A stretch of 64,000 nt of DNA from Fontisphaera persica (GTDB lineage Bacteria; Verrucomicrobiota; Verrucomicrobiia; Limisphaerales; Fontisphaeraceae): NCBI RefSeq assembly GCF_024832785.1, contig NZ_CP116615.1, forward strand, positions 4,216,001-4,280,000, written 5' to 3'. Of the stretch, positions 15,621 through 24,284 are shown piece by piece; the stretch's first letter is position 1; every line of letters begins with the position of its first letter. The notes under the pieces were generated by a model, which worked only from the letters and a program-made list of their open reading frames with translations, did no database searches and had not been told where the DNA came from. A program made the position numbers and the translations under genes.

Positions 15621-16241
15621 ATGAAAAAAATCACCGCTCCCACCCCCCCTCCCCAAACCTTTCGCCGCCTGTTGCCGCCGCCGCCGCGCTGGCGCAAAGA
15701 CCTGGCAGGCGTGCTCATTCCTGAAGACCGGCTGGCCCGCCGCGTGCGCCAGCTTGCCGCCAGCATACAGCACGATTACCGCCAGCACGAGCCGGTGCTC
15801 GTGGCCCTGCTCAGCGGCACCGTGATGTTTCTGGCCGATGTAATTCGGCATCTCGAACTGCCGTTGCGCCTGGATTTTCTCTCCGTCTCCAGTTACGGCG
15901 CCAGCACCACCAGCGGCGAACTGGTGTTCAGCAAAGAATTGCGCCTCGACATCCAGGGCAAGGACGTGCTCGTGGTGGAGGACATCCTGGACACCGGACG
16001 CACCCTCACCGCCGTCCTCGAAAAACTCCGCGCTCAGCGCCCCCGCCAACTCCGCGTTTGCGTGCTGCTCGACAAACCCGCCCGCCGCCAGGTGCCCGTC
16101 ACTGCGCATTACACCGGCTTTCGCATCCCCGACTATTTTGTGGTGGGCTACGGCCTGGACTTTGCCGAACGCTACCGCAACCTGCCCTTTATTGGCGTCC
16201 TGAAACCCGAACTCTATGGCGCAGACCCGCAGAAGAAATGA
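15621..16241 (+). CDS. hpt: Hypoxanthine phosphoribosyltransferase
   Basis: A 206-residue type I phosphoribosyltransferase. The PRPP loop is VLVVEDILDTGRT, the catalytic loop region is SVSSYGASTTSGE, and the C-terminal purine-binding segment is IPDYFVVGYGLDFAERYRNL. It salvages hypoxanthine and possibly guanine to the mononucleotides. The N-terminus has a Pro-rich extension of about 25 residues beyond usual Hpt; an internal start cannot be excluded. It lies 13 bases after the rRNA-modification fusion and is the last gene before the repeat region. Confidence 0.9.
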   Translation: MKKITAPTPPPQTFRRLLPPPPRWRKDLAGVLIPEDRLARRVRQLAASIQHDYRQHEPVLVALLSGTVMFLADVIRHLELPLRLDFLSVSSYGASTTSGELVFSKELRLDIQGKDVLVVEDILDTGRTLTAVLEKLRAQRPRQLRVCVLLDKPARRQVPVTAHYTGFRIPDYFVVGYGLDFAERYRNLPFIGVLKPELYGADPQKK

Positions 16242-16438
16242 CCCTGCCTTTTCCCCTCTGGCTCCTAAAACTTACGCCCGACCCTCTCCTGATGGGAGAG
16301 AGGTGAACCACCAACACCGCTTCTCACCAGCACGCCGGCAAAACGATGGGCGCATAAGGAGATGATTACCAGACTCGCACAATTTCACGTTTGCATCTCC
16401 TACCCCTCCCCCTTAAAGAGAGGCTCAGGGTGAGGGTG

Positions 16439-16591
16439 TGTAGCGCAGGCGTCCTCGCCTGCGGGTTCACGGAGCCTCCCGGCTCCGTGATTACAGCAAT
16501 GCCGTCGTCAAACAGACGCGCCTGTAAGCACCAAGCCGCACTTCAATCTCGCAGTAGCCATAACGTATGGCGTCCCGTCCCGCGTAGCGGG
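16439..16591 (-). repeat. Inverted partial copy of the 356-bp repeat unit
   Basis: The reverse complement of this segment matches the last third of the tandem unit, including the CCATACGTTATGG palindrome, the CGGAGCC hairpin and the GCAGGCG hairpin, with scattered differences. It faces the forward array that starts about 200 bp further on. Confidence 0.8.
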
Positions 16592-16791
16592 ATTGAGCTT
16601 GCGTCCCCTAATTCGGTGGCAATGAATTGAAGCAGGTAAATCAATGGTATTTCTGTCCCTAACTTGTCCTCCTCGACTGACTGAACAAACGCGCTCATGA
16701 ATCATCCAAGGCACAGTAACTTTTTCCCTCACCCCGTGGGGGAAGGTCAGGGTGAGGGTGATAGCATCGTAGCTCAGACGTCCCCGATGTA

Positions 16792-18372
16792 GCGCAGGCG
16801 ACTCGCCTGCGCTACACACCCTCACCTTGGCTTTCTGCTGCGATGGGGTGGAGGGAAAAGGGGGCAGAGCGTGTGAAAGGTGAAACACCAACCACGAATG
16901 AACACGAATGGACACAAATTTTGAACAGAAGGAAACGAAGGGAACGAAGAGGGAGAAGAGGCCCCTCACCCTGACCCTTTCCCCGGGGGGAGACGGGGGG
17001 ACTGTAGCGGGACGGATTATCCTGCCTCTAGCCTATGGGACGCCATACGTTATGGCTAATGCGAGATTGAGATGGGGCTTGGTGCGTCCAGGGGCGTGTG
17101 TTTGACGACGGCAATTTTGCAATCACGGAGCCGGGAGGCTCCGTGAACCCGCAGGCGAGACGCCTGCGCTACAGACCCTCATCTTGGCTTTCTGCTGCGA
17201 TGGGGTGAAGGGAAAAGGGGGCAGAGCGTGTGAAGGGGGGAGAGCAACCACGAATGAACACGAATGGACACAAATTTTGAACAGAAGGAAACGAAGGGAA
17301 CGAAGAGGGAGAAGAGGCCCCTCACCCTGACCCTTTCCCCGGGGGGAGACGGGGGGACTGTAGCGGGACGGATTATCCTGCCTCTAGCCTATGGGACGCC
17401 ATACGTTATGGCTAATGCGAGATTGAAGTGCGGCTTGGTGCGTCCAGGGGCGTGAGTTTGACGACGGCAATTTTGCAATCACGGAGCCGGGAGGCTCCGT
17501 GAACCCGCAGGCGAGACGCCTGCGCTACACACCCTCACCTTGGCCTTTTACCACGATGGGGTAGGGGAATACGAGGAAGAGCGCGTGAAGGGTGGAGAAT
17601 CAACCACGAATGAACACGAATGGACACGAATTTTGAACAGAAGGAAACGAAGGGAACGAAGAGGGAGAAGAGGCCCCTCACCCTGACCCTTTCCCCGGGG
17701 GGAGAGGGGGGGATTGTAGCGGGACGGATTATCCTGCCCCTAGCCTATGGGACGCCATACGTTATGGCTAATGCGAGATAGAAGTGCGGCTTGGTGCGTC
17801 CAGGGGCGTGAGTTTGACGACGGCAATTTTGCAATCACGGAGCCGGGAGGCTCCGTGAACCCGCAGGCGGGGACGCCTGCGCTACAGACCCTCATCTTGG
17901 CTTTCTGCTGCGATGGGGTGGAGGGAAAAGGGGGCAGAGCGTGTGAAGGGTGGAGAATCAACCACGAATGAACACGAATGGACACGAATTTTGAACAGAA
18001 GGAAACGAAGGGAACGAAGGGTGGAAACCGCCCCCTCACCCTGGCCCTCTCCCCGGGGGAGAGGGAAATACATCAAGTTCTGTCACAGACTTTGACCACC
18101 CTCACCCTAGCCCTCTTCCATTGGGAGAGGGAGGATTTTTAGCTGCGCGGATTATTCTCACGCTGGTACCTTGGCCCCTTAGCATATTTAGCCTGCGGGT
18201 TGCGGGCCTACTTCCGCTACGCGATTCGTGGACGCCATACGTTATGGCTAATGCGAGATAGAAGTGCGGCTTGGTGCGTCCAGGGGCGTGAGTTTGACGA
18301 CGGCAATTTTGCAATCACGGAGCCGGGAGGCTCCGTGAACCCGCAGGCGAGACGCCTGCGCTACAGACCCTC
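16792..18372 (+). repeat. Tandem array of about 356-bp units (three full copies plus partial ends)
   Basis: The marker ACCACGAATGAACACGAATG begins at 16891, 17247, 17603 and 17961, spacings of 356, 356 and 358. The hairpin CGGAGCC-GGGA-GGCTCCG recurs at 17126, 17482, 17838 and 18318, so the last copy carries about 122 extra bases and a different middle section. A tail-only copy precedes the array (16792-16890). Copies differ at only a few positions, so the array is probably recent or homogenised. It encodes no plausible protein. Confidence 0.9.
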
Positions 18373-18721
18373 ACCGTGGCCCTGTCCCGGGGGGAGAGGG
18401 AAAATAGTTAATGTGCCTCGAATTATTCATTATCTGCGTTTGCTCAATGCAGGCGAGGATGGAAAGTAAGAATAGAAACCCCATAGATGTTCTCAGCTTA
18501 ATTCGTTGCCTCCGGCCTGCGGGACGGAGGCTGAATCCCGCTTTGCGGGACGAGGACGCCTGCGCTACGGGATGGGACGCCTGCGATGCGTGGGGGGATG
18601 CTGTGGCAGGCGTCCCGGTAGAGTTAGGGACAGGTTGTTCGAGTGGAGAGATGGTTTTTGAGTCTGGGGCTTGCGCTTGCCGCACAAAACGCTTCTCAAG
18701 GCATGATTATGGTTTAATATT

Positions 18722-19465
18722 ATGGGCATGAAATCCGTGCGTTGGTTTTTATGGGCAGCCGTCATGAGCTGCGGGTTGCTGGCGTCCTGGCTGCCGGGCG
18801 CTGAGAAAATCCGTGTGCTGGTCATCACTGGCGGCCACGATTATCAGACCAACGAATTCTGGCAGGTGTTCAAGGATAATCCGGCCATCACCTTCCAGCC
18901 CGCGGTGCATCCGCAAGCCCATGATTATTGGAAGGCCGAGGCGGCGCGGCAATGGGATGTCATGGTGCTCTATGACATGTGGCAACCCATCAGCGCCCAG
19001 GCCAAGTCCAATCTGGTGGCCCGTTTGCACGAGGGCAAGGGGCTGGTGGCCCTGCATCACAGCCTGGCCAATTATCAGGACTGGCCGGAGTACCGCCAGA
19101 TCGTTGGCGGCAAATACGTGTTGAAAAAGGAGGTGCTCGACGGGGTGGAGCGCCCCGGCTCCACCTTCAAGCACGATGTGCTCATGCAGGTGCGAATCGC
19201 TTCCACCGCCCATCCCATCACGCGGGGGCTGAAAGATTTTGAGATTCACGATGAAACCTACGGCGGGTTGTACGTCCACCCTGAGGTCATCCCGTTGCTT
19301 TTATGTGACACTCCCACCAGCAGTCCTATCGTGGCCTGGGCCAAGACCTACGCCAACGCCCGCGTGGCTGCCATTCAACTGGGGCATGACCGGCTGGCGT
19401 ACGAAAATCCCAACTTCCGCAAAGTCCTGGCGCAAGCGATTGCCTGGGTGGCCCGTCAGCCTTGA
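18722..19465 (+). CDS. Secreted ThuA-domain protein
   Basis: A 247-residue protein with an N-terminal signal peptide (hydrophobic segment to about residue 26, ending near LPGAEK). The mature part is one ThuA domain, a class I glutamine amidotransferase-like fold: VLVITGGHDYQTNEFW, GKGLVALHHSLANYQDWPEY and the HPITRGLKDFEIHDETYG segment. ThuA proteins are linked to trehalose or other sugar use and are numerous in Verrucomicrobiota and Planctomycetota; the reaction is unknown. The first ATG (18722) and one two codons later are equally possible. It is followed after 3 bases by a DUF1638 gene. Confidence 0.85.
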   Translation: MGMKSVRWFLWAAVMSCGLLASWLPGAEKIRVLVITGGHDYQTNEFWQVFKDNPAITFQPAVHPQAHDYWKAEAARQWDVMVLYDMWQPISAQAKSNLVARLHEGKGLVALHHSLANYQDWPEYRQIVGGKYVLKKEVLDGVERPGSTFKHDVLMQVRIASTAHPITRGLKDFEIHDETYGGLYVHPEVIPLLLCDTPTSSPIVAWAKTYANARVAAIQLGHDRLAYENPNFRKVLAQAIAWVARQP

Positions 19466-23927: not shown

Positions 23928-24284
23928 AGGCTCGTCCGTCATTGGCACGCGCGGTAAATCAGCCGCGCAGGCAGGGTGCATGCCGGGGACGCTTGCACCG
24001 CATTAAGCACGGGTGGGCCAAAATCTTTGCCCTCGTAGCGCAAGGCGTCCGTGTCCCGCAAAGGGGCTCAGACCTGCGGGACGCAGGCCGAACTCGCAGG
24101 CGGGGACGCCTGCGCTACACACGCTCAGCCTGACCTTATCCCCATGAGGGGAGAGGTTTGGGGTGAGGGCCAAAGAGGCGTCCCAGCACTCAAGGGCCAC
24201 CTGATTTTCACCCCCCAATAATTTTCTTTTCCCCTGGCGCGGAATGTTCGAGGATAATGCGGGTTTTTTACTTGAAAGGTATTT
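23928..24284. repeat. Intergenic region holding a dispersed copy of the hairpin repeats
   Basis: About 360 bp. Between about 24036 and 24170 it carries the same modules as the 16-18 kb array: a GCAGGCGGGGACGCCTGCGC hairpin followed by CTACACAC and CTCA, plus a CCCCATGAGGGG dyad and GGGTGAGGG block. A separate GCGCGG...CCGCGC stem lies at 23949-23968. No gene is supported. Confidence 0.65.

Follow-up and report, generated by a model that had tools for sequence, protein, structure and literature searches.

A 356-bp tandem array in the chromosome of Fontisphaera persica is probably a large cluster of GTAG-tagged REPs with a mosaic build

Repetitive extragenic palindromes (REPs) bearing a GTAG tag have been grouped into a superfamily of 24 numbered families, and O. 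terrae (Verrucomicrobia) is described in the accessible part of that survey as highly enriched in GTAG repeats (PMC3733652). REP clusters and REP doublets forming hairpins (REPINs) are reiterated in tandem with their flanking DNA (available sections of PMC3733652 and PMC3116915), and most REPINs of Pseudomonas fluorescens SBW25 are single (PMC3116915, same sections). The genes of REP-associated tyrosine transposases (RAYTs) have inverted REP flanks, and excerpts of two reports indicate that the GTAG motif has a role in cleavage in vitro (PMC2817692, PMC8266576). Here we describe a tandem array of 356-bp units in Fontisphaera persica (Verrucomicrobiota). It lies in a stretch of 64,000 nucleotides (NCBI RefSeq assembly GCF_024832785.1, contig NZ_CP116615.1, positions 4,216,001 to 4,280,000), called the window, in which positions given without a prefix are counted; positions in Mb are those of the chromosome.

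We read the array as belonging to the known REP/REPIN cluster kind, ordinary in that respect but of an unusual mosaic build. It is very probably a large REP/REPIN cluster, in which REP dimers, presumably spread by a RAYT together with captured linkers, were afterwards duplicated locally in tandem. As far as the consulted parts of the literature describe these systems, the array shares tagged palindromes with the GTAG REP superfamily but differs in that two palindromes are joined and the linker modules come from other repeat families. The likeness to the tandem REPIN clusters of SBW25 is that REPIN clusters adjoin RAYT genes. The array has a longer unit and its linker is a mosaic, and 11 of the 37 cassette runs in this chromosome are tandem. 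What the E. coli REPs and TnpA-REP have in common with it is a RAYT gene between inverted REPs, whereas the E. coli REP stems are different and contain a bulge; the stems of the array are perfect.

The array was detected by Tandem Repeats Finder (one array) at 16793-18059, with a period of 356 bp, 3.6 copies, 93% matches and a score of 2180. Linker cassettes start at 16804, 17160, 17516 and 17874, spaced 356, 356 and 358 bp apart, in agreement with the original prediction, made from the sequence by a model, of complete units at 356-358 spacing. The R3 palindromes, and with them the palindrome blocks, are spaced 356, 356 and 480 bp apart. The difference between the two series places a 122-bp insert in unit 4, between cassette 4 and its REP block, and thereby locates a change of 122 bp that had been noticed in the fourth unit. 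The four units are 91-97% identical in pairwise comparison (12 to 33 substitutions per pair). Each consists of a block of 170 bp, bounded by GTAG...CTAC (the first at 17004-17173), and a linker of 186 bp. The block contains R3 (TCACGGAGCC-GGCTCCGTGA) and R4 (CGCAGGCG-CGCCTGCGCTAC). The linker contains module B, a degenerate CCCTCACC palindrome, followed by C (CACGAATGAACACGAATGG), D (TTTTGAACAGAAGGAAACGAAGGGAACGAAG) and E (CCCTCACCC..CCCCGGGGG). The three dyads claimed for each unit can be read as TCACGGAGCC/GGCTCCGTGA, CGCAGGCG/CGCCTGCG and the CCCTCACCC..GGGG palindrome.

The left end of the cluster is an inverted REP block (16439-16576, minus strand) with a GTAG-tagged REP hairpin (from 16440), a second palindrome (16467-16490) and a mid region. 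Relative to the four direct copies it is inverted, and over 122-151 nt its complementarity to the direct blocks is 90-92%, which bears out the inverted partial copy of the prediction. An inverted CCCTCACCC-type palindrome (module E; 16723-16758, minus strand) follows, and two back-to-back REP ends, GTAGCGCAGGCG-act-CGCCTGCGCTAC, form the centre of inversion at 16789-16815. The remainder is on the plus strand. Linker cassettes 1, 2 and 3 (16816-17003, 17174-17359 and 17530-17715), each with modules B-C-D-E, alternate with REP dimers 1, 2 and 3 (17004-17173, 17360-17529 and 17716-17885), each bounded by GTAG...CTAC; the left REP of the first is degenerate. Linker cassette 4 and the 122-bp insert, which bears a second CCCTCACCC-like palindrome, occupy 17886-18229, and REP block 4 occupies 18230-18368. 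The latter, which had been taken for a tail-only copy, is the REP block of unit 4. A closing REP of the nested-hairpin type (18515-18568) carries the final CGCCTGCGCTAC at 18557-18568. Both outer borders of the cluster carry REP ends. The array is real, and the cluster does not stop at 18545 as first thought but has its right limit at 18568.

For each of four motifs scanned in the window, the observed count was reached by 0 of 100 shuffles. Folded as single-stranded DNA, the inverted end module has a z of -5.0; the whole unit has a z of -1.76, and 4 of 100 shuffles fold equally well. No known RNA family was found in the window by an Rfam scan at the gathering threshold. A crude gene caller predicted no gene at 16242-18721, a 2.5-kb gap in which short open reading frames (ORFs) are present, in keeping with the view that nothing coding explains the array. 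An array of clustered regularly interspaced short palindromic repeats (CRISPR) was considered and rejected, as it had been originally, because the linkers are repeats themselves: the units, linkers included, have the identity given above and are found again at other places in the genome (no search for cas genes was made). That the copy number was invented by the assembly at one repeat is scarcely credible. The units are indeed 91-97% identical and their number is read from the assembly, but they differ from one another by the 12 to 33 substitutions per pair, the genome is a single contig, and similar tandem runs with periods of their own exist elsewhere (such as five copies of 324-325 bp at 3.666 Mb).

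A search of the genome with one unit, as had been suggested, returned at least 139 matches in the single 4,726,914-bp contig (C1), a lower bound because 40 of 58 candidate regions were scored, and the sites were mapped relative to genes and dnaA. The 12-mer GTAGCGCAGGCG has 153 exact copies in the chromosome (76 forward, 77 reverse) and its reversed control has none; its places among the matches listed reach 3.667 Mb. Around these places and the unit matches 31 stretches were taken, one of which (L035) holds a 12-mer without a module match. When merged, there are about 32 sites in the chromosome. The module order is broadly constant across clusters, some of which are without certain modules, and all 41 D modules that have an R4 within 250 bp upstream lie on the strand of that R4. 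None of 46 blocks overlaps a gene predicted by the crude gene caller, which also failed to call the RAYT gene and much of L036-L038.

The identity of the repeats as REPs is indicated by the tag. All 101 GCAGGCG..CGCCTGC palindromes in the 31 stretches, which were chosen for repeat matches, carry GTAG (98 at one end, 3 at both). In 40 evenly spaced 20-kb samples, partly overlapping with those stretches, 11 of 11 palindromes were tagged and none untagged (in 4 of the 40 samples). Among the 256 tetramers tested before a perfect 8-bp stem, GTAG is the commonest (109; median 1). The next are TGTA (88; offset, same sites), GAAC and GTTC (86 each) and AACC (69), the last three of which we take to be the opposite sides of the adjoining palindromes R3 and R4. 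Similarity around the tag drops at the G of GTAG, with the exception of the T directly before it (75%); because the profile is anchored on the tag, it shows a border and not conservation of the tag. Long segments of the array are shared with other loci. The segment 16439-16974 is 96% identical to L047:3852-4385 (C1:3,225,851-3,226,384), a match that begins 1 bp before GTAG, 17802-18572 is 94% identical to L046:6200-6973 (about C1:3.110 Mb), and 17515-18572 has 87% identity to a distant locus. Of the two borders of each of the best long shared segments, one falls no more than 4 bp from a GTAG end and the second falls within a module, a pattern that movement or recombination at REPs would be expected to give. 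In a literature search with the array motifs, the matches listed all came via the short string gaacagaagg only.

The candidate agent of movement is a 219-aa Y1 transposase encoded at C1:2,809,097-2,809,753. It is a RAYT by its match to NF047646 (100.5 bits, cut-off 80) and matches the TnpA-REP structure 4er8 (E 1.1e-8). Its motifs NHVH and YTVMNP, aligned to 4er8, contain what we take to be the catalytic residues (NHVH and the Y of YTVMNP). A RAYT motif table, in the part of the publication available, fits a catalytic role of the HUH and tyrosine residues (PMC6006769). Modules of the form GTAG...CTAC that end in R4 sequence lie on both sides of the gene, whose TAG stop falls in a REP tag. Homologs of this RAYT were found in 166 of 384 genomes of the class (E 1e-10). 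At 30 RAYT loci of the class, that of this genome included, a GTAG-tagged palindrome lies within 300 bp in 25 of 60 flanks; the shifted tags TAGC and AGCG score 22 and 21, the best other tag 15 and the median of 256 tags 3. The flanking stems vary between genomes and remain self-complementary, but only 10 of the 30 loci have a tagged palindrome on both sides.

A draft genome of the same genus (G001) has 3 copies of the 12-mer GTAGCGCAGGCG, a lower bound because it is a draft, and neither PF01797 nor the RAYT has a match there. In 57 other genomes the 12-mer has at most 13 copies each (its reversed control up to 18 in one). At the five-copy array at 3.666 Mb, the flank matches are about 59 bp apart in G001 and about 1,672 bp apart here, and a terminator-like hairpin just upstream is, by eye, kept in G001. 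The family of mobile non-autonomous elements that had been proposed is thus supported by the dispersed sites, a RAYT with the same REP flanks, the near absence of copies in the same-genus genome and one empty site. Another possible origin is a family of miniature inverted-repeat transposable elements whose terminal repeats read GTAGCG and whose movement depends on a target-duplicating DDE transposase. Such elements would likewise have short inverted ends (GTAGCG...CGCTAC) and sit between predicted genes. We consider this origin very unlikely: the sole transposase gene found beside the ends is the RAYT (no search was made for other transposase families), these ends form GTAG-tagged hairpins like those of REPs, and no target duplication was identified, though the one empty site, read by eye, is too diverged at its junction to judge.

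Several observations weigh against the REP/REPIN cluster and its spread by the RAYT. Movement by the RAYT is inferred from sequence, as is the capture of modules C and D, which are not REPs. The left REPs at the RAYT gene have the stem GCAGCCG, and the array mostly has GCAGGCG. At 20 of the 30 RAYT loci at least one side is without a tagged palindrome. Several relatives have RAYT homologs but few copies of the 12-mer, a pattern that would follow if every RAYT had a REP of its own. Collapsed repeats could have lowered the 12-mer count in G001, a draft of 70 contigs. The flanks of the window array are on two different G001 contigs, with no clean empty site, and both flanks are adjacent in G001 for one cluster only, 6 of the 7 mapped clusters being otherwise. 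At the window locus of G001, the left flank meets another ORF after about 50 bp and near the right flank a long ORF runs on the opposite strand; the 10.6 and 18 kb of G001 at these flanks contain no occurrence of any of five module motifs. The clusters were also considered as rearrangement breakpoints relative to G001, and this was rejected: 6 of 7 cluster gaps are broken versus 7 of 12 ordinary gaps of at least 60 bp (Fisher p = 0.33; one cluster gap and six other gaps, unmapped, are left out). Tested against all ordinary gaps (15 more below 60 bp, 0 broken), p is 0.007, a value confounded by operons.

The growth of the clusters is reflected in the identity of 96 REP blocks from 29 clusters. 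Within a cluster, blocks in the same orientation are 84.6% identical (102 pairs) and blocks in opposite orientation 72.6% (48 pairs), as against 74.5% between clusters (4,410 pairs); the within-between difference was reached by 0 of 1,000 label shuffles. In clusters of at least two blocks, 43 of 91 blocks have their nearest neighbour in the cluster to which they belong, without exception in the same orientation, in line with the recent amplification or gene conversion initially suggested. The similarity of same-orientation blocks within clusters means that direct copies often arise locally, and opposite-orientation copies look like separate arrivals. For the REP/REPIN cluster we propose that the RAYT would cut single-stranded REP hairpins at their GTAG ends and spread them, that linker DNA would be captured between REP ends, and that direct copies flanking a linker would then permit unequal recombination or gene conversion, by which units may be duplicated locally. 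Of the runs of cassettes with module D, 26 consist of one cassette, 7 of two, 2 of three, 1 of four (that in the window) and 1 of five. The quintuple array (L055:9721-11308; C1:3,666,220-3,667,807) has five copies of 324-325 bp and lies just after a terminator-like hairpin. REP cluster growth is thus seen outside Proteobacteria, and a single chromosome offers runs of 1 to 5 cassettes for comparison. Because such runs exist here and no RAYT was found in the same-genus genome, the step from dispersal to tandem growth is testable.

The distribution of the 32 merged sites along the chromosome is uneven (Rayleigh R 0.59; Monte Carlo 0 of 20,000) and has its mean at 3.37 Mb, with dnaA at 3.145 Mb; a regional chromosome effect may be involved. 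Alternatively, selection might maintain the array for a structural or regulatory role in the chromosome, for instance nucleoid-protein binding or transcript ending. This concentration around 3.37 Mb would fit it, as would the convergent gene pairs at 6 of 23 cluster gaps (13 tandem, 4 divergent) versus 32 of 330 background gaps (217 tandem, 81 divergent), a comparison made without a significance test and with a crude gene caller. The same-genus genome is nearly without copies, though, the cassette number varies between sites, and there are many sites and no single conserved locus, so that we give such a role little credence; the single structural chromosome site that had been envisaged is unsupported.

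Some further features of the chromosome were noted. Over 40 samples of 20 kb, a hand count gave 5 sign changes of the GC skew in 23 steps where repeats are sparse, against 9 in 15 steps in the repeat-rich part at 2.6-4.4 Mb, which looks as though inversions had been common in that part; the split was chosen afterwards. The locus L037 (2.097-2.110 Mb) has several partial Rhs cores with differing C-terminal ends and REP modules between them. These pieces are apparently orphan Rhs tips; of three ORFs scanned, one passes the cut-off for the Rhs core, another has a match that falls short of it and the third has no match. To the gene caller, L036 and L038 are gene-poor like L037.

The module D pattern GAACAGAAGGNAACGAAGGNAACGAAG is present in at least 119 stretches of named genomes. 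The 80 stretches among the matches listed are from Verrucomicrobiota, Planctomycetota and one Lentisphaeria bacterium, many of them from the same few genomes. In these loci (L065-L144) TTTGAACAGAAGGNAACGAAGGNAACGAAG, which is at 16917-16961 of the window and in the later copies, forms short inverted-repeat elements with differing inner sequences in Verrucomicrobiota and Planctomycetota, and the motif is also present in one Lentisphaeria contig. Among its 91 occurrences in the 80 loci listed, an inverted partner lies within 243 bp downstream in 39 and upstream in 10, and a direct downstream copy occurs once; the elements have a median length of 155 bp. None of 42 D copies in the clusters of this genome has such a partner. 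As D is without a partner here and partnered elsewhere, the array linker seems to contain one arm of a wider inverted-repeat element. A phmmer search with the RAYT against the ORFs of the 80 named loci and of the relatives' loci L184-L225 (including IS200-type matches) found nothing and so gave no link between module D and a RAYT. It is conceivable, if rather doubtful, that REP ends bound composite elements: cassettes of about 0.5-1.1 kb, carrying a captured arm of this second short inverted-repeat element (the arm motif occurring in Planctomycetota, Verrucomicrobiota and a Lentisphaeria bacterium), would be moved by the RAYT or by REP-REP recombination, and the composites would then build arrays concentrated in one half of the chromosome.

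A second RAYT-like gene of this genome (L033, C1 about 2.496 Mb) lies in frame inside alaS and is bounded by inverted palindromes. Its frame scores 797.8 bits as alanyl-tRNA synthetase (TIGR00344, cut-off 457) and 76.2 bits with NF047646 (cut-off 80). Together with the 30 loci from the class homolog search this makes 31 RAYT loci, of which 11 have conserved protein parts on both sides of the RAYT in one open frame (L033, L287, L291, L292, L293, L294, L296, L298, L301, L302 and L303). The host genes encode alanyl-tRNA synthetase (AlaRS), Sua5 (two), HsdR, methionine synthase (MetH; three), valyl-tRNA synthetase (ValRS; two), carbamoyl-phosphate synthase (CarB) and leucyl-tRNA synthetase (LeuRS). 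Pfam domains are on both sides in 10 of the 11; L298 ends soon after the RAYT and its downstream side was judged by eye. L299 and L300 have a conserved domain on one side only. Three nested frames compared with NCBIfam are above the tRNA ligase cut-offs, and their RAYT parts score 63.5-78.1 bits, below the cut-off of 80. Among the 150 RAYT homologs in the matches listed, 65 are in open frames of at least 500 aa. Unexpectedly long TnpA proteins have been set aside as fusions or annotation errors, according to the portion of that study available (PMC6006769). No literature on RAYT genes nested in conserved genes was found among titles and abstract openings, most subscription literature being outside this scope. 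The nested RAYTs possibly represent a widespread intein-like lifestyle without known splicing; they may be more interesting than the array and merit a study of their own.

In the window, the array is flanked on the left by a hypoxanthine phosphoribosyltransferase gene (15621-16241, plus strand; TIGR01203, 188.7 bits, cut-off 150) and on the right by a gene for a ThuA-domain protein (18722-19465, plus strand; PF06283). The parts said to recur at 24.0-24.2 kb are present at 24092-24169, as a solo REP end (24107-24118) and a CCCTCACCC-like palindrome with 3 mismatches (24150-24169).
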